DNA of 64,000 nucleotides from Candidatus Bipolaricaulota bacterium (GTDB taxonomy: Bacteria > Bipolaricaulota > Bipolaricaulia > Bipolaricaulales > Bipolaricaulaceae): NCBI GenBank assembly GCA_014360985.1, contig JACIWK010000011.1, positions 1 through 64,000 on the forward strand, written 5' to 3'. The notes under the pieces were generated by a model, which saw only the letters and a list, made by a program, of their open reading frames with translations, made no database searches and was not told the origin of the DNA. Made by a program: the position numbers and the translations under genes. Of the stretch, positions 9,307-64,000 are shown piece by piece (the stretch's first letter is position 1; every line of letters begins with the position of its first letter).

Positions 9307-9444
9307 GTGCGGGGAGAGCATGGGACCCGGGCCGGATGCAGACAGGGGCAACGTCCTCTCCGGAGGGAGCGGTGGGCGCGGGGCAGTCGACGGACCGGCG
9401 GCATGGCCCGGACGCACAGGCCAACCGAGGTGAGATGCGCCTGA
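9307..9444 (+). CDS. Possible 45-codon Arg-rich leader ORF overlapping the citDE start
   Basis: The frame starts with GTG directly after the -10 at 9294-9299 and stops at a TGA (9442-9444) that overlaps the first codons of citDE by 10 bases. It would encode 45 residues with 13 arginines. The placement fits a leader peptide translationally coupled to citDE. Arg-rich shadows are common in GC-rich DNA, so this may be only leader RNA. I see no hydrophobic segment or known domain. Confidence 0.25.
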   Translation: MRGEHGTRAGCRQGQRPLRRERWARGSRRTGGMARTHRPTEVRCA

Positions 9445-10604
9445 AACGGGAAGCGACAGCGGGATCGGTGGACCGATCCGATGCCTTGGTCCGGGTGCAG
9501 CCGGGAACGGGCCTCGCCGTCTCCGTGCGGACGAGGACCGGCCCGATGGACGAGGAGCACATCGCCACCGTGGTCCGAGACGCCCTGAGCGGGTACGGGG
9601 TGGAGAACGCCCACGTCGAGGTCGAGGAGGCCGGGGCGTACGACCACGTCATCCTCGCTCGCCTCGAGGCGGCGTTGTCCCGGTCCGTGGGGAGCGAAGA
9701 GCCGTTCCGGTCTCCCCTCCCCCGTCCGGACCGGCAGCCCACGCTCCGCGACCGGCCGCGCCGCACCCGCCTCTACGTCCCGGGAGCGAACGCGCGCCTG
9801 TTGGCGTTCGCGGACTCGTTCGGGCCGGACTGCCTCCTCCTCGACCTCGAGGACGCGGTGGCCCCCTCCGAGAAGGACAGCGCCCGGTTCCTCGTGCGGC
9901 GGGCGTTGGCGACGATGGACTTCGGAGCCACCGAGCTGTGGGTGCGCATCAACCCCCTCGACGCGGGCGGGGCCGACGACGTCGCGCTCGTCGTGGCCGG
10001 CCATCCCCACGGGATCTGCCTCCCCAAGGCCGAGGACCCCGCCGAGGTCCGGGCGCTCGCCGATCTCCTCTCCTCCGTCGAGGCAGCGTACTCCGTCCCG
10101 TGGCCGCTGTGGATCATGCCGATCATCGAGTCCCCTCGGGGGGTCCTCGCCGCGGCGGACATCGCGGGGGCCTCGGAGCGGGTGGTGTGCCTCGCCTTCG
10201 GTGCCGAGGACTACACGCGCGAGGTGGGGGCGCAGCGGTCGTGGGAGGCCCTCCTCTGGGCCCGGTCCCAGCTCGTCGCCTCCGCCAAGGCCGCCGGGAT
10301 CCAGGCATCGGACACCGTGTTCCCGAACGTGGAGGACGAGGAGGGGCTGCGCGAGGAAGCGCGCCGGGCGCGGGAGCTGGGGTTCGACGGAAAGGGGGTC
10401 ATCCACCCCCTCCAGATTGCCATCGTCCACGATGCGTTTGCCCCGAACGCCGCCGAGGTGGCCTGGGCGCGGGGGGTCGTGGAAGCGGCCGCGCAGGGTG
10501 GGCGGGGGGTGGTTGCCCACGAGGGGCGGATGATCGACCGCCCGGTCCTCGAACGGGCGAAGAGGATCCTCGAACAGGTCGGGGAGGGGACCGATGCCGA
10601 CTAA
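9435..10604 (+). CDS. Citrate lyase CitD-CitE fusion (acyl carrier protein plus citryl-CoA lyase subunit)
   Basis: 389 residues when started at the ATG at 9435, preceded by GAGGTGAG. Residues 1-84 match CitD (gamma, the acyl carrier subunit): TAGS near residues 8-11, then VRDALSGYGVENAHVEVEEAGA and ILARLEAAL. A linker of about 25 residues leads to CitE (beta): TRLYVPGANARLL, LLDLEDAVAP, the FGAEDYTRE segment, AGIQASDTVF and LGFDGKGVIHP. CitE cleaves the acyl-bound citryl group to oxaloacetate and acetyl-carrier. In Klebsiella/E. coli CitD the prosthetic group sits on Ser14 of an ES(S/G)D motif; here the motif reads DRSD, with Arg at 14 and Ser at 15. The gene overlaps citF by 11 bp. Citramalate lyase has the same architecture and cannot be excluded. 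Confidence 0.85.
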   Translation: MRLKREATAGSVDRSDALVRVQPGTGLAVSVRTRTGPMDEEHIATVVRDALSGYGVENAHVEVEEAGAYDHVILARLEAALSRSVGSEEPFRSPLPRPDRQPTLRDRPRRTRLYVPGANARLLAFADSFGPDCLLLDLEDAVAPSEKDSARFLVRRALATMDFGATELWVRINPLDAGGADDVALVVAGHPHGICLPKAEDPAEVRALADLLSSVEAAYSVPWPLWIMPIIESPRGVLAAADIAGASERVVCLAFGAEDYTREVGAQRSWEALLWARSQLVASAKAAGIQASDTVFPNVEDEEGLREEARRARELGFDGKGVIHPLQIAIVHDAFAPNAAEVAWARGVVEAAAQGGRGVVAHEGRMIDRPVLERAKRILEQVGEGTDAD

Positions 10605-12141
10605 CGCGGTGGGAAGGGAGATCCCGGCCACGGTGGCTGGAAGGGCCCTGCGACCCTACCAAGGGGCGTTCGCCACCGTCCCCGCGGGGCGTCGGGCCGG
10701 GGGCCCCCTGAAGACGATCCGCCCCCGGGAGGACAAGGTCGCTCCCTCGCTCGAGGACGCGATCCGCCGCTCCGGCCTCCGCGACGGGATGACGATCTCC
10801 TTCCACCACTGCTTCCGCGATGGGGACAGGCTCGTCCTCCAGGTCGTCGAGGCCTGCGCCCGGTTGGGGATCGGCGATCTAAGGCTCTTCCCCACCGCCC
10901 TGTTCCCCTGCCACGAGCCCCTCGTCCGCCACATCGAGGCCGGGGTCCTCACCCGGATCGAGGGGTCGATGAACGGTCCGATCGGGGCGTTCGTGTCCCA
11001 GGGGGGGAAGCTCCGCGAGCCCCCGATCCTCCGCTCCCACGGCGGCCGGTGGCGGGCCGTGGCGTGCGGCGAGGTCGAGATCGACGTCGCGTTCATCGCC
11101 GCCTCGGAGGCGGACCCCTGGGGCAACGCCAACGGGATCCATGGCCCCCACGCCTGCGGCCCGATCTCGTTCTCGGTCGTGGATTCCTGGTGCGCAAACC
11201 ACGTGGTGGTCGTCACCGACCACCTCGTCCCCTACCCGGCGGTGCCTCCCACGATCGAGCAGGGGTACGTCGACCAGGTGGCGGTGGTGGACCAGGTGGG
11301 CGATCCGGCGGGGATCGTCACGGGCACCCTCCGCATCACCCGCTCCCCGACCCAGCTCAAGATCGCCGAGCTCGCGGTGCGGGCGGTGGAGGCGGCGGGG
11401 CTGGTGCGGGACGGGATGTCGTTCCAGGCAGGCGCAGGCGGGATCTCACTCGCCGCGTTGGAGTTCCTCTCCCAGCGAATGCGGGCCACGGGGGCCCGGG
11501 CCGCGTTCGCGATCGGGGGGACAACGCGGTACCTCGTGGGGATGCTCAACGAGGGCCTCGTGGGGACGATCCTCGATGGGCAGGCGTTCGACGAGGAGGC
11601 GATCGCGTCCCTGCGGGCCAATCCCCGCCACCAGCCGATCACGCCCGGGTTCTACGCGGACTACAACTCGCTCGGGTGCGCGACGTACATGCTCGACTTC
11701 GCGTTCCTGGGTGGAACCGAGGTCGATCTCGAGTTCAACGTGAACGTGAACACCCACTCCGACGGACAGCTCCTCCACGGGATCGGCGGGCACCAGGACG
11801 TGGCGAGCGGGGCCGGGGTCACGGTGATCACCCTCCCCACCTTGCGGGGCCGGGTGCCGATGATCCGCGACCGCGTGACCACCGTCACCACCCCCGGCGA
11901 GGTGGTGGACCTCGTGGTCACCGAGCGCGGGATCGCCGTGAACCCGCGCCGCTCGGATCTCGCCGCCGACCTCCGTCGGGCGGGGCTCCCGGTGCGGACG
12001 CTGGCCGAGATGAAGGAGGCCGCGGAGCGGCTCGTGGGGGAGAGGAGAAAGCCCGTGTTCGGAGACGAGATCGTGGGGATCATCCAGTGGCGGGACGGAA
12101 CGGTGATCGACGTCGTGCGAAAGGTGGAGGGTTGGAGATGA
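10594..12141 (+). CDS. citF: Citrate lyase alpha subunit (acetyl-ACP:citrate ACP transferase)
   Basis: 515 residues, close to the 510 of E. coli CitF. After a variable N-terminus of about 40 residues come LEDAIRRSGLRDGMTISFHH, the SHGGRWRAV segment, DPWGNANG, LVPYPAVPPTIEQ, GAGGISLAALEFL and IDVVRKVEG at the end, all in CitF order. The enzyme swaps the acetyl group on the carrier for citrate. It starts inside the citDE 3' end and ends in an ATGA overlap with the HD protein, so CitDE and CitF should be made together. The usual helpers citC, citG and citX are not in the window, so activation of the carrier must depend on genes elsewhere. Substrate could be citrate or a close relative such as citramalate. 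Confidence 0.88.
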   Translation: MPTNAVGREIPATVAGRALRPYQGAFATVPAGRRAGGPLKTIRPREDKVAPSLEDAIRRSGLRDGMTISFHHCFRDGDRLVLQVVEACARLGIGDLRLFPTALFPCHEPLVRHIEAGVLTRIEGSMNGPIGAFVSQGGKLREPPILRSHGGRWRAVACGEVEIDVAFIAASEADPWGNANGIHGPHACGPISFSVVDSWCANHVVVVTDHLVPYPAVPPTIEQGYVDQVAVVDQVGDPAGIVTGTLRITRSPTQLKIAELAVRAVEAAGLVRDGMSFQAGAGGISLAALEFLSQRMRATGARAAFAIGGTTRYLVGMLNEGLVGTILDGQAFDEEAIASLRANPRHQPITPGFYADYNSLGCATYMLDFAFLGGTEVDLEFNVNVNTHSDGQLLHGIGGHQDVASGAGVTVITLPTLRGRVPMIRDRVTTVTTPGEVVDLVVTERGIAVNPRRSDLAADLRRAGLPVRTLAEMKEAAERLVGERRKPVFGDEIVGIIQWRDGTVIDVVRKVEGWR

Positions 12142-12675: not shown

Positions 12676-13929
12676 GTGGGGAAGACGTTCGCGGAGAAGA
12701 TCCTCGCCCAGAAGGCGGGCCTGGCCGCGGTCGAGCCGGGGCAGATCGTGACCGTGAAGCCGGACCTCGGGATGTCCCATGACAACACGGCGGCGATCGC
12801 CAAGCTGTTCGCGAAAATCGGCCGGAAGCGGGTGAGAGAGCCGGAGAAGCTCGTGGTCATCCTCGACCACGTCGTGCCCGCCGCCAGTGTGGACTACGCC
12901 CAGAACCACAGGGAGATCCGGGAATTCGTGCGCGAGCAGGGGATCCGGTTCTACGACGTCGGGCGCGGGGTGTGCCACCAGGTGGTGGTCGAAGAGGGCC
13001 TCGTCGGTCCGGGGGACCTCGCGCTGGGGGCGGATTCCCACACCCCGACCTACGGCGCGGTGGGGGCGTTCTCCGCCGGGATCGGTCGCTCGGAGATGGC
13101 GGCCGTGTGGGCGACCGGCGAGCTGTGGCTCAAGGTCCCGACGACCCTGCGCATCGAGCTCGACGGGGCCCTGCCCGAGCTCGTCACCCCCAAGGACGTG
13201 ATCCTCCACGTGATCGGAAGGCTCGGTGCCGATGGGGCCCTCTACCGGTCCGTCGAGTTCGCGGGCCCGCTCGCGGGGCGGATGACGGTCTCCGACCGGA
13301 TGGTGATCGCGAACATGGCCGCGGAGATGGGGGCCAAGAACGCGTTCTTCGCCCCCGACGAGACCACGCTCAGCTACCTCTCCGCGCGCACCGACCGCAC
13401 GTTCGCCCCCGTTTTCCCCGACCCGGATGCCCACTACGAGGGGACGGTCCGGTTCGAGGTCGGGGAGCTGGAACCCCAGGTGGCGTGCCCGCCGGATGTG
13501 GACCACGTGGTGCCGATCTCGGAGATCGCCGGGAAGAGGGTGGACCAGGTGGTGGTCGGCACGTGCACGAACGGGCGGATCGAGGACCTGCGCCTGGCGG
13601 CGGAGGTGATGGCAGGCCGCCCGGTGGCGGACGGGGTCAGAATGCTCATCGTCCCCGCCTCGCGGGAGGTGTGGCTGCGCGCCGCCGAGGAGGGGTTGCT
13701 CGCCCTGTTCGCCGAGGCGGGGGCCCTCGTCCTGAACCCCGGTTGCGGCCCGTGCCTCGGGGCCCACGAGGGCGTGCTCGCCGCCGGTGAGGTCTGCCTC
13801 GCCACCTCGAACCGCAACTTCCGGGGGCGGATGGGGTCGCCGGACGCGGAGCTGTACCTGGGCTCCCCGGCGGTGGCCGCGGCGGCAGCGGCGACGGGGA
13901 AGATCACCGACCCCCGGCAGCTGATCTGA
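12676..13929 (+). CDS. Aconitase-superfamily hydratase, large subunit (LeuC/homoaconitase type)
   Basis: 417 residues. The start is a GTG after AAAGGAGGG. The 4Fe-4S ligands are C297 in GTCTNGR and C357 and C360 in PGCGPC. The GADSHTPTYGAVGAF and ATSNRNFRGRMGSP segments are typical of two-subunit 3-isopropylmalate dehydratase, homoaconitase, dimethylmaleate hydratase and mesaconase enzymes, which move a hydroxyl group across a C=C bond. Substrate cannot be read from the large subunit. The neighbours (citrate lyase and an isocitrate-type dehydrogenase, no leuA or leuB proper) argue against leucine synthesis and for citrate, homocitrate or a methylated analogue. The small subunit follows 9 bp later. 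Confidence 0.85.
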   Translation: MGKTFAEKILAQKAGLAAVEPGQIVTVKPDLGMSHDNTAAIAKLFAKIGRKRVREPEKLVVILDHVVPAASVDYAQNHREIREFVREQGIRFYDVGRGVCHQVVVEEGLVGPGDLALGADSHTPTYGAVGAFSAGIGRSEMAAVWATGELWLKVPTTLRIELDGALPELVTPKDVILHVIGRLGADGALYRSVEFAGPLAGRMTVSDRMVIANMAAEMGAKNAFFAPDETTLSYLSARTDRTFAPVFPDPDAHYEGTVRFEVGELEPQVACPPDVDHVVPISEIAGKRVDQVVVGTCTNGRIEDLRLAAEVMAGRPVADGVRMLIVPASREVWLRAAEEGLLALFAEAGALVLNPGCGPCLGAHEGVLAAGEVCLATSNRNFRGRMGSPDAELYLGSPAVAAAAAATGKITDPRQLI

Positions 13930-13938
13930 GGAGGAGCG

Positions 13939-14433
13939 ATGATCGTTGGACGCGCTTGGAAGTACGGGGACAACGTGAACACGGACGTCATCTTCCCCGG
14001 CCGGTACACCTACGCGCGGATGGAGCCGGAGGAGATGGCCAAGCACGCCCTGGAGGACCTCGATCCGTCGTTCGCGCGCGAGGTGAAGCCGGGGGACGTG
14101 ATCGTGGCCGGCCGCAACTTCGGGTGCGGCTCGTCCCGGGAGCAGGCGGCGACGTGCCTCGCTGCGGCCGGGGTCGGGGCCGTGGTGGCGAAGGGGTTCG
14201 CCCGGATCTTCTTCCGCAACGCGATCAACTCCGGGCTCCTCGTCCTCGAGATCCCGGACGCGGTGGACGCGATCCAGTCCGGGGACAGGGTGGAGATCGA
14301 CACCGAGAACGGGGTGCTCATCCACGAGGGGAAGAGGCACCCGTTCCCGCCGCTCCCGGATGGGGTGCGGGAGATCCTCGCCGCCGGGGGGCTGATCCCC
14401 TACCTCCGGGACCGGCTCGCCAAGGAGGGATGA
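13939..14433 (+). CDS. Aconitase-superfamily hydratase, small subunit (LeuD type)
   Basis: 164 residues, a normal LeuD-type swivel domain. Visible motifs are [15 protein letters not shown] at the start, [14 protein letters not shown] in the middle, and [17 protein letters not shown]. The loop after the TD motif that helps choose the substrate reads [10 protein letters not shown]. Characterised homoaconitases and isopropylmalate isomerases usually carry a YLR-x or YLVY-like loop here, so the sequence does not point cleanly to either. It pairs with the large subunit upstream, and its TGA stop directly abuts the ATG of the dehydrogenase. Confidence 0.85.
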
Positions 14434-15555
14434 ATGGCCCGCTACCGGATCGCGTACCTCCCCGGGGACGGGATCGGGCCCGAGGTACTGGAGGCAGCGC
14501 GCCTCGTCCTCGACTCCGTCGGGTTCAACGCCGAATACGTGCCGGGCGACATCGGGTGGCGGTTCTGGTGCGAGGAAGGGGACCCCTTCCCCCAGCGGAC
14601 GATCGACCTCCTCCACGAGGTGGATGCCGCCCTGTTCGGGGCGATCACGTCCAAGCCGGCCAAGGATGCGGAGGCCGAGCTCTCCCCGGCGCTGCGGGGC
14701 AAGGGCCTCGCCTACCGGTCGCCCATCGTGCGCATGCGCCAGCTGTTCGACCTCTACGTGTGCCTGCGGCCGTGCAAGGCCTACCCGGGGAATCCCCTCA
14801 ACTACCGGGAGGGGATCGACCTCGTCGTGTTCCGGGAGAACACGGAGGACCTCTACGCCGGGGTCGAGTTCCGCCCCGTGCCGCCGGAGCTTGCCCAAAC
14901 CCTCAGCGGGCTGGCGAAGCCGTTCGCCCCGTTCCGGGACCTCGCCCTCGACCAATACGCGATCTCGTGCAAGATCAACACCCGCCAGGGGTCGGAGCGG
15001 ATCGTGCGCGCCGCGTTCGAGTTCGCCCGCCAGCACGGGCGGAAGAAGGTCACCGCGGTCCACAAGGCGAACGTGGTGCGGGCCACGGACGGCCTGTTCC
15101 TCGAGGCGGCGCGGGAGGTGGCAGCCGACTACCCGGAGATCGCGTTCGACCACGCCAACATCGACGCCCTGTGCATGTGGCTCCTCAAGAACCCGTTCAA
15201 CTACGACGTCCTCGTCGCCCCGAACCTCTACGGGGACATCATCTCCGACCTGTGCGCCCAGATGGTGGGCGGGCTTGGGTTCGGCTGTTCGGGGAACATC
15301 GGGGATCGGCTGGGGGTGTTCGAGCCGACCCACGGTTCGGCCCCCAAGTACGCGGGCCAGCGCAAGGTGAACCCGATCGCGTCCATCCTCGCCGCGAAGA
15401 TGATGCTCGAGTGGTTGGGAGAAGGGGAGCAGGCAGCGCGGGTCGAGCGCGGCGTGGCGCAGGTCATCGCCGAGGGGAAGGTCCGCACCTACGACATGGG
15501 CGGGACGGCGACCACGGATGAGATGGCCGAGGCGATCGCCCGCGCCGCCCACTAG
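14434..15555 (+). CDS. Beta-decarboxylating dehydrogenase, isocitrate/homoisocitrate type
   Basis: 373 residues of the isocitrate/isopropylmalate dehydrogenase family. N-terminal YLPGDGIGPEV, the active-site stretch with RSPIVRMRQLFDLY, the RENTEDLYAGVEF segment and NLYGDIISDL (metal-binding Asp) are all present. A serine aligns with the substrate-binding serine of isocitrate dehydrogenases and LRP follows, which fits isocitrate or homoisocitrate better than isopropylmalate. The coenzyme loop reads APKYAGQRKVNP; the Lys-Tyr pair is typical of NADP use in E. coli Icd, although the later Arg of that set is missing. The start ATG abuts the small hydratase stop. It is a separate, shorter type than the second dehydrogenase at 61819. 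Confidence 0.82.
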   Translation: MARYRIAYLPGDGIGPEVLEAARLVLDSVGFNAEYVPGDIGWRFWCEEGDPFPQRTIDLLHEVDAALFGAITSKPAKDAEAELSPALRGKGLAYRSPIVRMRQLFDLYVCLRPCKAYPGNPLNYREGIDLVVFRENTEDLYAGVEFRPVPPELAQTLSGLAKPFAPFRDLALDQYAISCKINTRQGSERIVRAAFEFARQHGRKKVTAVHKANVVRATDGLFLEAAREVAADYPEIAFDHANIDALCMWLLKNPFNYDVLVAPNLYGDIISDLCAQMVGGLGFGCSGNIGDRLGVFEPTHGSAPKYAGQRKVNPIASILAAKMMLEWLGEGEQAARVERGVAQVIAEGKVRTYDMGGTATTDEMAEAIARAAH

Positions 15556-15565
15556 GGAGGGGACG

Positions 15566-16945
15566 ATGCAATCGATCAGCAGACGACTGGCCGAGTTCGC
15601 CCACGAGCTCCGCTACGAGGAGATCCCGAACGAGGCGTGTACTGAGGCGAAGCGGTTCCTCCTCGACTCGGTGGGGTGTGCGCTCGCCGCGCTCGACCTC
15701 CCCGACATGGCCGCCGCCCACCGCTACGTCGCGAAGCTCGGGGGAGCGGATCACGCCACCGTGATCGGGTTCGGGACGCGGACGAACCTCCCCCTCGCCG
15801 CCCTCATGAACTCCCTCCTCATCCGGGCGCTGGACTACAACGACATCTACTGGAAGCAGGATCCATCGCACCCCTCTGACATCATCCCCGCCGCGCTCGC
15901 CCCCGCGGAGGCCCTCGGCCGCTCCGGGAAGGACCTCCTCGTGGGGATCGTCCTCGCCTACGAGGTCGAGATGCGGCTCTGCCTTGCCGCCCACCCCGGG
16001 ATCCGCGAGGTGGGGTGGCACCACGCGAGCCTGACCCAGTTCGCGAGCCCGCTCGTGGCAGGGCGAATGCTCGGGCTCTCCCCAGACGAGCTCGTGGCCG
16101 CGGTGGGGATCTCCGGGTCGAGCCACTTCACCCTCGGTGGGGTGGTGGCCGGCAAGCTCACGAACATGAAGAACACCGCCGATCCGATGGCGGTGGAGGC
16201 CGGGGTGCGGGCGGCGCTCCTCGCCCGCGAGGGCTACACCGGGCCGGTGGAGGTGTTCGAGGGCAAGGAGGGCCTGTTCCACGTCCTCCACAACGTGACC
16301 TGGGACTCCGAGGCGCTCCTCGCCGACCTCGGGGAGAAGTTCCTCATCACCGAGTGCGGGTACAAGGCGTTCCCCACCGAGGCCCTCACCCACCAGCCGA
16401 TCACCGCGGTCCTCGAGCTTGCGCGCGAGCACGGGATCGACCCCCGCGCGGTGCGGGAGGTCCTCGTCGAAACCACAACCCGCGGCGCGGACATCCTGTC
16501 CGACCCGGAGAAGTACCACCCCACGACGAAGGAGACGGCTGACCACTCGCTTCCCTACTGCCTTGCGGTGGCCCTGGCCAAGGGGAACGTTCTGCCGAGC
16601 GACTTCACCGACGAGGCGCTGCGCGACCCCCTCGTGGGGGAGCTCCTCCCGAAGATCAAGGTCGTCAAGAACCCCGAGATCGACGCCCTGTTCCCGAAGG
16701 TGAAGCGGGCGATCGTGACGATTGTCCTCGCCGACGGGCGACGCCTCCGCCGGGTGGAGGACCACGCCAAGGGCGAGCCGGAGCGGCCGCTCTCCCCGGC
16801 CGAGCTGCTCGCCAAGTTCCGCGCCAACGCGGGGACCGCGCTCCCCGAGCGACGGCGAGAGGAGCTGATCGAGGCAACGCTGGAGTTGGAGAAGGTCGGA
16901 AACATTCGCGACTACGTGCGGCTCCTCGTGCGGGGCGGGGGGTGA
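15566..16945 (+). CDS. MmgE/PrpD family protein (2-methylcitrate/citrate dehydratase family)
   Basis: 459 residues. The ATG at 15566 follows AGGGAGGGG, which decides it over an upstream in-frame start. Family hallmarks are the N-terminal RFLLDSVGCALAA, RALDYNDIYW, the HPSDIIPAALA segment, KNTADPMAVEAG, and TADHSLPYCLAVAL near residue 335. MmgE/PrpD enzymes dehydrate 2-methylcitrate or citrate without a metal cluster; relatives decarboxylate cis-aconitate or epimerise iminodisuccinate. As last gene of the operon it could provide the citrate (or analogue)-to-aconitate step that feeds the hydratase pair upstream. The true substrate is not readable from sequence. Confidence 0.85.
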   Translation: MQSISRRLAEFAHELRYEEIPNEACTEAKRFLLDSVGCALAALDLPDMAAAHRYVAKLGGADHATVIGFGTRTNLPLAALMNSLLIRALDYNDIYWKQDPSHPSDIIPAALAPAEALGRSGKDLLVGIVLAYEVEMRLCLAAHPGIREVGWHHASLTQFASPLVAGRMLGLSPDELVAAVGISGSSHFTLGGVVAGKLTNMKNTADPMAVEAGVRAALLAREGYTGPVEVFEGKEGLFHVLHNVTWDSEALLADLGEKFLITECGYKAFPTEALTHQPITAVLELAREHGIDPRAVREVLVETTTRGADILSDPEKYHPTTKETADHSLPYCLAVALAKGNVLPSDFTDEALRDPLVGELLPKIKVVKNPEIDALFPKVKRAIVTIVLADGRRLRRVEDHAKGEPERPLSPAELLAKFRANAGTALPERRREELIEATLELEKVGNIRDYVRLLVRGGG

Positions 16946-59098: not shown

Positions 59099-59116
59099 AT
59101 CCTCCCCACAGGGGTG

Positions 59117-61027
59117 ATGGAAGTGGCGAAAACGTTGCTGGAGAAGGTCCTTGCCGAACACGTCGTCGCGGGCGCGCTCGTCGAGGGGAGCGAGATCGGG
59201 ATCCGGATCGACCAATGTCTGACCCAGGATTCGACGGGGACGATGGCGTGGCTGGAGTTCGAATCCCTCGGCCTGGACAAGGTCCAGGCTGAGTTGGTGG
59301 TCTCCTACAGCGACCACACCTCGCTCGGGTTCAAGGGCGAGTCCACCGACGACCACCTGTTCCTGCAATCGATCGCCTCCCACTACGGGGCGAAGTTCTC
59401 GAAGAACGGGAACGGGGTCTGCCACCAGGTGCACTACGAACGGTTTGGGATCCCAGGCAAGACCCTGCTCGGCTCGGACTCCCACACCCCGACCGCGGGC
59501 GGGCTGGGGATGCTCGGGATCGGGGCCGGCGGCGCCGACGTCGCGGTGGCGATGGCCGGGGGGCCCTTCTACCTCACCGTGCCCAAGGTGATGCGCGTCG
59601 TCCTCACCGGGAAGCTTCCGTGGGGGGTCACGGCCAAGGATGTGGCCCTGGAGATCCTGCGCCGGATCTCGGTCAAGGGCGGAGTGGGGTACTTCATCGA
59701 GTTCACCGGGCCGGGGGTGAAGACCCTCTCCGTCCCCGAGCGGGCGACGATCACGAACATGTGCACCGAGACCGGGGCCACGTCGTCGATCTTCCCTTCC
59801 GACGAGGTCACGAAGGAGTTCCTCGAGCTGCAGGGCCGGGGCGCGGACTGGCGCGAGCTGTCCGCCGATCCCGACGCGAGTTACGACGCGACGCTGGAGA
59901 TCGACCTCTCGTCCCTCGTCCCCCTCGTCGCGATGCCCGGGAGCCCGGACAACGTGGTCCCGGTGACCGAGGTCGTAGGTACGAAGATCGACCAGGTGTT
60001 CATCGGTTCGTGCACGAATGGGTCGTACCGGGACATCAAGGTCGTGGCGGAGATGCTCAAGGGGAAGCGCGTCGCCCCGGAGATCGACGTCGTCGTTTCG
60101 CCGGCTTCGCGGCAGGCGTGGGAGATGCTCGTCGAGGACGGCAGCTTCCTCGCCCTGACCCGCGCCGGGGTTCGACTCATCGAGCCGGGGTGCAACGCGT
60201 GCATCGGGATCGGGTTCGTCCCCGGGACGAACACCCTGGCGCTCCGCACGGTGAACCGGAACTGGAAGGGCCGCGGGGGAAACGAGCTCGGGAAGCTCGC
60301 CCTCACAAGCCCGGAGGTGGCCGCGGCGTCGGCCCTGAAAGGGGCGATTGCCGACCCGCGCGAGCTCCCGCCGGTCACGGTGCGCGTCACCAAGCTCGTT
60401 GTCGATGACGTGATGATCGTCGAACCCCAGGGCCCGTCCGTTCCCATCCGCCGGGCGCCGAACATCGTGAAGATGGCCCCCCCGCGGCCCCTCCCGTCCG
60501 TGCTCAGGGGCGAGGTCCTGCTCAAGGTGGGGGACGGGATCTCCACCGACGCGATCCTCCCCGCGGGGCCGCTCACCCAGCACCTGCGCTCGAACCTGCC
60601 CGAGATCGCGAAGTTCACGTTCCACTACGAGGACAAGACGTTCGCCGCCCGCGCGGCGGAGAAGGGCGGAGGGTTCATCGTCGGGGGCGAGAACTACGGG
60701 CAGGGCTCGTCCCGCGAGCACGCCGCGCTCGCCCCGTGGCAGCTCGGGATCAAAGCCGTCATCGCCAAGAGCTTCGCCCGGATCCACAAGGCGAACCTCG
60801 TCAACGTGGGGATCCTCCCGCTCGTGGGCGACACCGCGGCCTTTGACCAGGGCGACGCGCTCGAGATCGACGTCTCCGACCTCCATCGCCCGCTCGTGGT
60901 GCGCAACGTGACGAAGGGGACGACGATCCCGGTCAAGGCGGAGCTCTCCGAGCGCGAGCGGCGGATGGTCAAAGCGGGCGGCCTCCTCGCGATGGCCGCG
61001 GCAGGGCAAGGAGTCGCGATCAGGTAG
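59117..61027 (+). CDS. Aconitate hydratase, short single-chain type
   Basis: 636 residues, shorter than AcnA/AcnB (~890) and similar to the compact single-chain aconitases of Aquifex and clostridia. The 4Fe-4S ligands are C299 in GSCTNGS and C359/C362 in EPGCNACIG. GSDSHTPTAGGLGMLGIG and the C-terminal swivel domain GGENYGQGSSREHAA are intact in one chain. It interconverts citrate and isocitrate. A GTG three bases upstream is an alternative start. It heads the operon aconitase-iclR-icd-ATP-citrate lyase, under the promoter and operator at 59029-59098. Confidence 0.92.
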   Translation: MEVAKTLLEKVLAEHVVAGALVEGSEIGIRIDQCLTQDSTGTMAWLEFESLGLDKVQAELVVSYSDHTSLGFKGESTDDHLFLQSIASHYGAKFSKNGNGVCHQVHYERFGIPGKTLLGSDSHTPTAGGLGMLGIGAGGADVAVAMAGGPFYLTVPKVMRVVLTGKLPWGVTAKDVALEILRRISVKGGVGYFIEFTGPGVKTLSVPERATITNMCTETGATSSIFPSDEVTKEFLELQGRGADWRELSADPDASYDATLEIDLSSLVPLVAMPGSPDNVVPVTEVVGTKIDQVFIGSCTNGSYRDIKVVAEMLKGKRVAPEIDVVVSPASRQAWEMLVEDGSFLALTRAGVRLIEPGCNACIGIGFVPGTNTLALRTVNRNWKGRGGNELGKLALTSPEVAAASALKGAIADPRELPPVTVRVTKLVVDDVMIVEPQGPSVPIRRAPNIVKMAPPRPLPSVLRGEVLLKVGDGISTDAILPAGPLTQHLRSNLPEIAKFTFHYEDKTFAARAAEKGGGFIVGGENYGQGSSREHAALAPWQLGIKAVIAKSFARIHKANLVNVGILPLVGDTAAFDQGDALEIDVSDLHRPLVVRNVTKGTTIPVKAELSERERRMVKAGGLLAMAAAGQGVAIR

Positions 61028-61035
61028 GGACAGGA

Positions 61036-61797
61036 GTGGAGACGCGGTTGAACACACTTCAGAAGTGCCTGCGCATCCTGACCCTGTTCGGGGAGGTTCG
61101 TGCGGAGCTGAGCGCCGCCGACATCGCCCGCTCGCTGGACCTCCCCCGGAGCACGACCTACCGCTACGTGCTCGCGCTCAAGGCCCACGGGCTCCTCGAG
61201 GAGGATCCGCGTACTGGTCTCCTCCGGCTGGGGGGGAGGCTTCTCCAGCTGGCAGGGGGGGTACGCAAGCGCGGGCTGATCGAGATCTCGCGTCCTGTGA
61301 TGGAACGCTTGGCAACGGAGACGGGCGAGACGTTCATCCTCGCCGGCCTCCACGAGACGAGCGGGATCTGCCTCGAGCGGGTGGAGGGGCACCACGCCCT
61401 GCGCGTGTCCCACGAACGGGGGGCAATCTTTCCGCTGCACGCTGGGGCGACGGGCAAGGTCCTCCTCGCGTACCTGCCCAAGGACGATCAGGAGAGGATC
61501 ATCGCCCAAGGCCTCCCCCGGTTCACCGAGACCACGATCACCGACCCAAAGGTGCTCCGGGCTGAGCTGCGGCGGATCCGTCGCCGCGGATACGCCGAGA
61601 GCGACGGGGAGGTCCTCCCCCACACCTACGGCCTGGCGATGCCGATCTTGAGCGACACAGGCTGGATCCTGGCCGCGCTGGGGATGTCCGCGCCGAGCAC
61701 GCGGCTCGATTCCACGCGCAAAACCCCGGTGCTGGAGAAGATGACCGCTGCCACGCGGGCGATCGCCCGCGAGCTGGCGGTCCACGATGTGACCTAG
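61036..61797 (+). CDS. IclR family transcriptional regulator
   Basis: 253 residues. The winged helix shows ADIARSLDLPRSTTYRYVLALKAHG (S-T-T-Y-R recognition helix). The effector domain has RPVMERLATETGETFILAG, FPLHAGATGKVLLAYLP and a MPILSDTGWILAALGMS end, all standard IclR. The effector is unknown; small organic acids are common ligands. Lying between aconitase and isocitrate dehydrogenase and 8 bp after the aconitase stop, it probably controls this operon through the palindrome at 59076-59098. GTG start with a short Shine-Dalgarno distance. Confidence 0.9.
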   Translation: METRLNTLQKCLRILTLFGEVRAELSAADIARSLDLPRSTTYRYVLALKAHGLLEEDPRTGLLRLGGRLLQLAGGVRKRGLIEISRPVMERLATETGETFILAGLHETSGICLERVEGHHALRVSHERGAIFPLHAGATGKVLLAYLPKDDQERIIAQGLPRFTETTITDPKVLRAELRRIRRRGYAESDGEVLPHTYGLAMPILSDTGWILAALGMSAPSTRLDSTRKTPVLEKMTAATRAIARELAVHDVT

Positions 61798-61818
61798 GAA
61801 CCGACAAGGAGGTTCAGC

Positions 61819-63117
61819 GTGACAACGAGCGTTCAAGCCCCCAAAGGGGGCCAACCCGTCACGATGACGGCCCGCGGCCTCACCGTGCCAGATCGCCCGA
61901 TCATCCCCTACATCCGCGGCGACGGGATCGGGGTCGACATCACGCCCGTGATGCTCCGCGTCGTGGACGCGGCGGTGGAGAAGGCGTACGGAGGGAAGAG
62001 GAAGATCGCCTGGATGAAGGTCTACGCCGGGGATGAGGCGATCGAGCACTTCCACCCCGGCCTGTCCGCGGACGAGATCAAGGCCATTCCCCCCGACGAG
62101 CGGCAGAAACTCTACCTCCCCGAGGAGACGGCCCAAGCGATCCAGAAGTACCTCGTGGCGATCAAGGGCCCGCTCACGACCCCGGTCGGGGGCGGGATCC
62201 GCAGCCTCAACGTGACCCTCCGCCAGGTGCTCGACCTCTACGCGTGCGTGCGTCCGGTGAAGCACATTGGGACCCCGGCTCCGGTTCGCGAGCCGGAGAA
62301 GGTGGACATGGTCTTCTTCCGGGAGAACACGGAGGACGTCTACGCGGGGATCGAGTGGAAGGCCGGCTCGCCCGAGGCGGACAAGGTCATCGCCTGGCTG
62401 CAGGGCGAGATGAAGGTGACGTCGATCCGCTTTCCCACGAAGTGCGGGATCGGTGTGAAGCCGATCAGCGAGGAGGGCTCGAAGCGCCTCGTCAAGGCGG
62501 CGATCGAGTACGCCATCGCCGACGGGCGCACGAAGGTCACCCTCGTTCACAAGGGGAACATCATGAAGTTCACCGAGGGGGCGTTCCGCGACTGGGGGTA
62601 CGAGGTCGGGAAGACGTACCCGCAGATCGTGACCGAGGAGGAGGTCGCCACGACCTACGGTGGCAGGGTCCCGGCCGGCAAGATCGTCCTCAACGACAGG
62701 ATCGCCGACCAGTTCTTCCAGCAGATGCTCCTGCGGCCCGACGAGTACTCCGTCGTCGCGACGACAAACCTCAACGGTGACTACATGACCGACGCCGCGG
62801 CGGCTCAGGTCGGTGGTCTCGGCGTAGCTCCCGGGGCGAACATCAACTACACCACGGGCCACGCCGTGTTCGAGGCCACCCACGGCACGGCCCCCAAGTA
62901 CGCCGGCCAGGACAAGGTGAACCCGGGAAGCCTCATCCTCTCCGCGGTGGAGATGCTGAAGTACCTCGGGTGGCGCGAGCCCGCCGAGGCGATCCTCCGC
63001 GCGATCCGCGCCGCGATCGCCGCCAAGCGCGTGACCTACGACCTCGAGCGGCTGATGCCGGGGGCGACCCTCGTCTCCTGCTCCCAGTTCGGCGACGAGA
63101 TCGTGAAGCGCCTGTAG
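61819..63117 (+). CDS. icd: NADP-type isocitrate dehydrogenase
   Basis: 432 residues from a GTG after AAGGAGG. The substrate site [15 protein letters not shown] carries the regulatory/binding serine and the Asn and Arg of E. coli Icd; [13 protein letters not shown], the [13 protein letters not shown] segment and NLNGDYMTD follow. The coenzyme determinants [17 protein letters not shown] and VTYDLERLM match NADP enzymes. It can oxidise isocitrate or, in a reductive cycle, carboxylate 2-oxoglutarate. ATP-citrate lyase follows after 10 bp, which favours the reductive direction or cytosolic acetyl-CoA supply. Confidence 0.94.
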
Positions 63118-63127
63118 GGAGAGAGAG

Positions 63128-64000
63128 ATGGCCCAGAAAGGGATTCGCGAGTACGACGCCAAGCGGATGCTCGCCCGGGCGATCGGGGAGTACTCCGGCG
63201 GCCGGTTCGCGTTCGACGATCGTCTCGTCCTCGTCACGCCGGAGACGGACCTGGCGAGGTTGGGGAAGGATCACCCCTGGCTCCGGACGGAGAAGCTCGT
63301 CGTGAAGCCCGACCAGCTGTTCGGCAAGCGGGGAAAGAACAACCTCCTCCTCCTCGACGCCGACCTCCGGGCCGCCGTGGCGTGGATCGGGGAGCGCATG
63401 GGAAAGGAGGTGACGATCGAGGGCGCGGGCGGGAAGACGACCGGCGTCCTCACCCACTTCCTCATCGAGCCGTTCGCCCCCCACGACGCGGAGTACTACC
63501 TCGCGTTCACGAGCTCCCGCGACGCGGACACGATCCACTTCTCCCCGCAGGGTGGGGTGGACATCGAGTCGGTGTGGAACACGGTGGTCTCGATCGAGGT
63601 CCCGGTGCTGACGGACCCGGCAGAGGTCGACGTTGCGTCGAAGCTGCCCGACATCCCCGAGAAGGAGACCGTGGCCGCGTTCGTGCAGGCCCTGTACCGG
63701 ATCTACGTGGACTACCACTTCACCTACCTTGAGTTCAACCCGATCGCGTTCTCCCGCGGGAGGCTCCTCCCCTTGGACACCGTGGCCAAGCTCGACGACA
63801 CGGCGGCGTTCCAGTGCGCGGACAAGTGGGGGCCGATCGAGTTCCCCCGTCCCTTCGGCCGGGCGATGACGAAGGAGGAAGCGTACGTCGAGTCGCTCGA
63901 CGCCAAGACCGGGGCGTCGCTCAAGCTGACCCTCCTCAACCCGGACGGCCGCGTGTGGCTCCTCGTCGCCGGCGGCGGGGCGAGCGTGATCTACGCCGAC
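63128..64000 (+). CDS. ATP-citrate lyase, ATP-grasp subunit (AclB/ACLA type), 3' end outside the window
   Basis: The frame is open to the window end, 291 codons from the ATG after GAGAGAG. IREYDAKRMLAR, VVKPDQLFGKRGKNNLL, LIEPFAPHDAEYYLAF, YLEFNPIAF, KLDDTAAFQCADKWGPIEFPRPFGR and VAGGGASVIYAD match the small/ATP-grasp subunit of ATP-citrate lyase in green sulfur bacteria and plants, in order. The enzyme splits citrate with ATP and CoA into acetyl-CoA and oxaloacetate. The large subunit is expected next, beyond the window. With aconitase and icd it makes three key steps of a reductive TCA route. Confidence 0.93.
   Translation, partial: MAQKGIREYDAKRMLARAIGEYSGGRFAFDDRLVLVTPETDLARLGKDHPWLRTEKLVVKPDQLFGKRGKNNLLLLDADLRAAVAWIGERMGKEVTIEGAGGKTTGVLTHFLIEPFAPHDAEYYLAFTSSRDADTIHFSPQGGVDIESVWNTVVSIEVPVLTDPAEVDVASKLPDIPEKETVAAFVQALYRIYVDYHFTYLEFNPIAFSRGRLLPLDTVAKLDDTAAFQCADKWGPIEFPRPFGRAMTKEEAYVESLDAKTGASLKLTLLNPDGRVWLLVAGGGASVIYAD

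Follow-up and report, generated by a model that had tools for sequence, protein, structure and literature searches.

A serine-less CitD domain fused to CitE in Bipolaricaulota: a candidate prosthetic-group-free member of the citrate lyase superfamily

Introduction

Citrate lyase is a textbook enzyme that needs a covalent CoA-derived arm, together with several dedicated genes to make this arm. The citramalate lyase of the Clostridium type is likewise a three-part enzyme and carries the same prosthetic group. We take Ser14 of the carrier subunit CitD to be the known attachment site of this group. The window analyzed here, a stretch of 64,000 nucleotides from the genome of a Candidatus Bipolaricaulota bacterium, contains a gene for a citrate lyase-like carrier in which residue 14 is arginine. 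This locus raises the question of how such an enzyme would work: with the arm on a neighboring residue, with another carrier group, or with no arm at all.

Results

Organization of the citDE operon

The features of the operon are collected in Table 1. The fusion of CitD to CitE, already claimed in the initial annotation, was evident from a Pfam search of the open reading frame taken from an in-frame ATG upstream at 9336 (a second possible start), which found both an ACP/CitD and an HpcH_HpaI/CitE domain in one chain, which has 389 aa when read from 9435. CitF reached the equivalog level for the citrate lyase alpha subunit (TIGR01584) and matched the solved structures 2hj0 and 1xr4 over its full length. 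The CitD and CitE domains reached the family models PF06857 and PF03328 and stayed below the equivalog level (TIGR01608, 54.6 bits vs a cut-off of 63.5; TIGR01588, 250.5 bits vs 443.4).

Table 1. Coordinates of the citDE fusion, its domains and the neighboring genes in the window
Feature	Position	Strand	Basis
citD-citE fusion gene	9435-10604	+	389 aa; translation; M at 9435 lines up with homologue starts
CitD (gamma, carrier) domain, residues 1-88	9435-9698	+	PF06857, 58.1 bits (cut-off 25.1); fold as MdcC
Residues S11-V12-D13-R14-S15, loop at the prosthetic-group site	9465-9479	+	Sequence; alignments
CitE (beta, C-C lyase) domain	9744-10604	+	PF03328, 174.3 bits; R171, E232, D259 conserved; lineage-specific R112, R121
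citF (alpha, acyl/CoA transferase)	10594-12141	+	Overlaps the end of citDE; TIGR01584, 527.2 bits (cut-off 501.45)
HD-domain hydrolase, 175 aa	12138-12665	+	ATGA overlap with citF; PF01966, 50 bits
Aconitase/isopropylmalate isomerase family large subunit	12676-13929	+	TIGR02086 and TIGR01343 over cut-off, subfamily level
LeuD/DmdB family small subunit	13939-14433	+	TIGR02087, 192 bits (cut-off 109)
Isocitrate/isopropylmalate-type dehydrogenase (family level)	14434-15555	+	PF00180, 308 bits
MmgE/PrpD family protein	15518-16945	+	PF03972, 245 bits; PF19305, 154 bits

Among solved structures, the small isomerase subunit was matched best by the small subunit of isopropylmalate/citramalate isomerase (3vba), and the dehydrogenase, which reached no NCBIfam cut-off, by isocitrate and homoisocitrate dehydrogenases. 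When the arginine-loop rule that we assume for homoaconitase-type small subunits was applied to the operon copies, such a loop proved not to be conserved, the copies reading G-[RK]-Y-T-Y-x-[PR]-[ML]. The order of an HD gene followed by the isomerase large subunit was found in all 12 phylum loci with sequence past citF (16 loci taken). Outside the window's genus, the dehydrogenase and PrpD neighbors were seen in L062 alone, a genome labeled 'proteobacterium'.

Position and fold of the carrier site

Residues 10-16 of the CitD domain read G-S-V-D-R-S-D. Residue 14 is thus Arg (codon 9474-9476) with the nearest serines at 11 and 15, exactly as had been annotated. Over 36 CitD sequences, including canonical ones, the invariant columns were G10, D16, G67 and R76. 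Since G10 and D16 are invariant with zero gaps between them, the Ser14 position is certain.

The CitD domain was modeled alone because the CitE barrel fills the fold-match list of the whole chain, in which no CitD-domain match was found. The AlphaFold model had a pLDDT of 91. No solved structure matched the domain by sequence; the fold search succeeded, with MdcC of malonate decarboxylase (5vit_C) as the best solved match (Z 10.9, rmsd 2.1, 84 aligned; next row Z 9.0). Model residues 1 to 85 lie on residues 12 to 97 of this chain, so that residue 14 falls on Ser25 (an offset of 11), provided that no indel precedes it. In MdcC, the prosthetic group is attached at Ser25 (PMC5534430). In the model, residues 11-15 form a loop between two strands, as in the description of MdcC. 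By this model, the serine-less domain retains the CitD fold.

Serine-less CitD domains form a family

Our phylum sample consisted of 100 genomes (Bipolaricaulota/Acetothermia); many of the genomes analyzed, here and below, are incomplete MAGs. PF06857 was detected in 45 of them. Open frames of at least 366 aa, that is, fusions, held 43 of the 46 matches, and the remaining three were cut by contig ends. A scan of named genomes gave at least 80 CitD loci and added Thermoplasmatota MAGs, the 'proteobacterium' L062, Calditrichota (L079) and a Spirochaetaceae MAG (L097), as well as an unfused archaeal serine-less version with K14 (L081, among the matches listed). The residue counts below cover 57 serine-less domains, of which 43 come from the 46 phylum loci and 14 are from among the matches listed; L045 and L046 (region absent) and L018 (a fragment, though with R14-S15) were left out, and L070 is truncated.

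Whether related fusions keep Ser14 had been proposed as a check, and none of the 57 domains does. Residue 14 is Lys in 30, Arg in 19, Glu in four, Ala in three and Pro in one, the 14 non-phylum domains being from among the matches listed. By group, these are R18 and A1 in the window's family, K23 and R1 in other Bipolaricaulota, and K7, E4, A2 and P1 in other hosts. Judging from these alignments, the lack of Ser14 is family-wide and not a single case. An artifact of sequencing or alignment is ruled out by the gapless, invariant G10-D16 segment and by the lack of Ser14 in all 57 relatives.

Ser15 is present in all 19 domains of the window's family, in one of 24 from other Bipolaricaulota and in three of 14 from other hosts. 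Because it occurs in only 23 of the 57 domains, the other 34 having Gly, Arg, Ala or Lys, a simple shift of the attachment to Ser15 cannot apply to the family as a whole, although it may have occurred in the window's own branch. Moreover, neither the 57-domain nor the 36-sequence alignment contains an invariant Ser, Thr, Tyr, Cys, Lys or His in the serine-less domain. A direct acyl thioester on a cysteine of CitD was also considered and rejected, as the window's domain has no Cys; Cys17 is present in 37 of the 57 domains but is Ala in the window's family.

Unfused CitD copies lacking Ser14 were also observed in Fusobacterium mortiferum (L096, 7995-8267) and Dethiosulfatibacter (L121, 7708-8004). 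They read E-K-D/N-S-D with Ser15 kept, and both genomes also hold canonical CitD paralogues with E-S-N-D or E-S-S-D.

Genes for making and attaching the arm

The initial annotation had stated that no citG, citX or citC lies in the operon. This was borne out, and the genome search that it proposed found none of the three in the whole genome (assembly 94% complete). CitX and CitG are the modifying enzymes, and CitC is the ligase for acetylation. CitG, CitX and CitC were each detected in 0 of the 100 phylum genomes with Pfam models (E. coli control positive each time), the three models being blind to any non-homologous modifying enzyme. The same held for 16 further serine-less-type genomes, mainly Thermoplasmatota, among the matches listed (0/16 for each protein). 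In genomes with Ser14-type CitD, again among the matches listed, CitX was found in 29 of 31, CitG in 29 of 31 and CitC in 30 of 31 (weak in G133). A second, normal CitD elsewhere was rejected as an explanation: the window's genome has one PF06857 match, and so does each of the 16 genomes G100-G115.

The association of Ser14 with CitX is strong when genomes are counted (Fisher p 6e-9, 49 genomes), while the tree offers only two to three independent pairs (sign test p 1). It thus represents one or two evolutionary events, spread over several host lineages. The genomes of L096 and L121 carry CitX, CitG and CitC, all three; neither CitX nor CitC was found in the flanks of their Ser14-less CitD copies.

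CitE and CitF lineage and constraint

In quick trees without bootstrap, the 34 serine-less, CitX-less rows of the CitE tree (81 rows) lie on one side of a branch with SH-aLRT 87, and the 26 serine-less-type rows of the CitF tree (72 rows) on one side of a branch with SH-aLRT 99; the Ser14 region is missing in three of the 34 CitE rows (L053, L070, L073). The unfused L081 branches beside the fused rows with weak support and, on this placement, the serine loss may have preceded the fusion.

The residue alignment of CitE was made without L097, L070 and L107. The catalytic residues R171, E232 and D259 are conserved in all 32 serine-less rows and all 43 Ser14 rows. Other positions distinguish the two sets. 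Position 112 is Arg in 32/32 serine-less vs 0/43 Ser14 rows, and a basic residue occupies position 121 in 31/32 (R29, K1, H1) vs 0/43. Position 195 is Cys in 30/32 serine-less rows and Arg in 36/43 canonical ones. R112 starts barrel strand beta-1 in the model and probably lies away from the active site, to judge from the barrel topology. As a general residue for free CoA, R121 gave a mixed picture, the equivalent being Lys in CLYBL and Thr in 5ugr. The CitE sequences of L096 and L121 each have Lys at position 121.

The median ratio of CitD to CitE divergence is 1.49 in the serine-less set (93 pairs) vs 1.42 in Ser14 rows (285 pairs). By this measure, the serine-less CitD domain appears not to be decaying, its ratio being like that of canonical sets. 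Within the window's genus, dN/dS over three pairs was higher for CitD (0.30-1.05, 88 codons) than for CitE (0.19-0.29), which hints at weaker constraint there.

The HD gene and the archaeal loci

An HD gene stands directly before citDE in all 11 Thermoplasmatota loci with upstream sequence, and citF is near citDE in four of 12 loci (both counts among the matches listed). Among the loci listed, an HD gene adjoins serine-less citDE at L060, L061, L064-L067, L069, L072, L074, L075, L081 and L094. At the 47 other citDE loci among the matches listed (L082-L130 without L094 and L097), no HD gene was found. The genes flanking the archaeal HD-citDE pair of L060 (5934-7478 and 9201-10214) matched no Pfam family.

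Discussion

We consider it probable, at roughly 0.6, that the window encodes an enzyme of the citrate lyase superfamily that depends on CoA and has no prosthetic group, with CitD kept for docking or assembly. On CitF, acetate and a 3-hydroxy acid, either citrate or citramalate, would exchange CoA, and the CitE domain would then split or form the thioester of the acyl group with CoA. In both steps, the CoA would be the ordinary, diffusible molecule. CitD, no longer the carrier of a swinging arm, would be a fused docking or assembly domain that holds CitE beside CitF. Residue 14 of this domain, mostly basic (Lys/Arg), may bind CoA through one of its phosphates. The initial annotation had left a choice between an attachment moved by one residue and a carrier that works differently. 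The second is favored, given that Ser15 is missing in most of the family, that the domain has no invariant nucleophile and that CitX, CitG and CitC are missing genome-wide; a moved attachment would at most concern the window's own family.

Isolated subunits of citrate lyase were reportedly described by Dimroth and Eggerer in 1975 as acting on CoA thioesters. A study of CitE-like enzymes describes members of this superfamily as acting on free CoA thioesters and as binding the phosphates of these through Arg, Lys or His (PMC3832036). Work on malonate decarboxylase likewise describes MdcC as a bridging subunit and MdcD-MdcE as decarboxylating free malonyl-CoA (PMC5534430).

The window's enzyme resembles the ATP-independent citrate lyase CitDEF of the K. 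pneumoniae/E. coli type in having all three components, a CitF over the TIGR01584 cut-off, the CitE catalytic residues and the CitD fold with its invariant Gly, Asp and Arg. It differs in that CitD and CitE form one chain without Ser14, in the lack of CitX, CitG and CitC from the genome, and in belonging to a separate lineage in both the CitE and CitF trees. Clostridium-type citramalate lyase is a homologous three-part enzyme, and an isopropylmalate/citramalate-type isomerase lies adjacent in the window. The free-CoA lyases related to CitE (malyl-CoA lyase, CLYBL, Rv2498c) share the CitE fold (Z about 30-35) and the catalytic residues, and free CoA use is what we propose here; on the other hand, those enzymes stand alone without CitD or CitF. 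MdcC is the best solved fold match of the window's CitD, whose residue 14 falls at its Ser25, but MdcC keeps this serine, which is modified by MdcB/MdcG (PMC5534430). Neither a serine-less CitD nor a prosthetic-group-free citrate lyase was found described in the open-licence papers, as far as their text was available.

The substrate may not be citrate. A citramalate lyase or synthase would join or split pyruvate and acetyl-CoA, and the adjacent LeuCD-like isomerase and dehydrogenase would turn citramalate into 2-oxobutyrate. This reading concerns the substrate and is therefore compatible with the free-CoA mechanism; we regard it as a real, if minority, possibility. A second citrate module lies at 59114-64000 and continues to 66258 of the contig, with a full-length aconitase (PRK07229, 798 bits, cut-off 612), an IclR regulator, an NADP-IDH (TIGR00183, 634 bits, cut-off 567) and ATP-citrate lyase, whose ATP-grasp subunit starts at 63128 and is followed by the large subunit. 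Citrate thus seems already served by an equivalog-level aconitase and NADP-IDH together with ATP-citrate lyase. A canonical citrate/isocitrate role of the operon neighbors is weakened by this set, and because of its presence the substrate of the operon isomerase and dehydrogenase may be a different acid, for example citramalate. The affinity of the small isomerase subunit to isopropylmalate/citramalate isomerase and the Cys at position 195 of CitE in place of the mostly canonical Arg also favor citramalate. So does the outcome for PF00682, the family of isopropylmalate, citramalate, homocitrate and Re-citrate synthases and of HMG-CoA lyase: the search, positive in 14 of 14 control genomes, found no such enzyme in the window's genome. 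On the other hand, CitF passes the citrate lyase alpha cut-off, the best solved matches of the dehydrogenase are isocitrate and homoisocitrate dehydrogenases, and the dehydrogenase and PrpD genes were observed nowhere but in the window's genus and L062. Moreover, no PF00285 domain was found in 27 of the 45 CitD-bearing phylum genomes, and citrate formation would make sense in these genomes lacking a citrate-synthase-type domain. A strong citrate synthase (PF00285, E < 1e-100) occurs in 15 phylum genomes and the CitD fusion in 45, with both in none; they belong to different families of the phylum.

A fuller and more speculative version of our reading, which we offer tentatively, is that in Bipolaricaulota, Thermoplasmatota and a few others the carrier was converted into a domain for docking and for binding CoA non-covalently. 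The basic residue replacing the serine would hold CoA, CitE would have acquired basic residues to match, and a fusion would have joined the domain to its catalytic partner. The resulting lyase would possibly work in the synthetic direction where citrate or citramalate synthase is lacking.

It seems unlikely that the same prosthetic group sits one residue further on, at Ser15, placed there by an unrecognized transferase. The invariance of Ser15 in the window's family would suit such a shift, as would its presence in the unfused L096 and L121 copies, whose genomes have CitX, CitG and CitC. However, Ser15 is missing in 34 domains that all belong to one CitE/CitF lineage, and CitX and CitG are missing genome-wide. 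Canonical CitD, too, often has Ser15 (E-S-S-D), so that this residue needs no new role, and the L096 and L121 genomes have canonical Ser14 CitDs for their CitX.

Still less probable, in our opinion, is the use of a different residue or carrier group, put in place by some protein that is not related to CitX and CitG, perhaps involving the adjacent HD hydrolase. The HD gene adjoins serine-less citDE in both bacteria and archaea and none of the 47 other loci among the matches listed, and this association speaks for some such link. HD proteins are, however, hydrolases and not transferases, the CitD domain has no invariant nucleophilic residue, and the variety of Lys, Arg, Glu, Ala and Pro at residue 14 argues against a single lysine-linked group. 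An inactive complex or decaying gene is very improbable: CitD does evolve faster than CitE within the window's genus, but 43 of the 46 phylum matches are full-length fusions, the other three being cut by contig ends, the catalytic residues are conserved, and CitD and CitE differ in rate by the same ratio as in canonical sets.

If the free-CoA reading is true, a three-part enzyme family without the arm would show an acyl-carrier machine reverting to a free-CoA enzyme, or else a state before the arm. The serine-less family would then offer a direct test of whether the covalent arm is needed at all. For genome annotation, 'citrate lyase' calls in Bipolaricaulota and Thermoplasmatota may hide a distinct enzyme.
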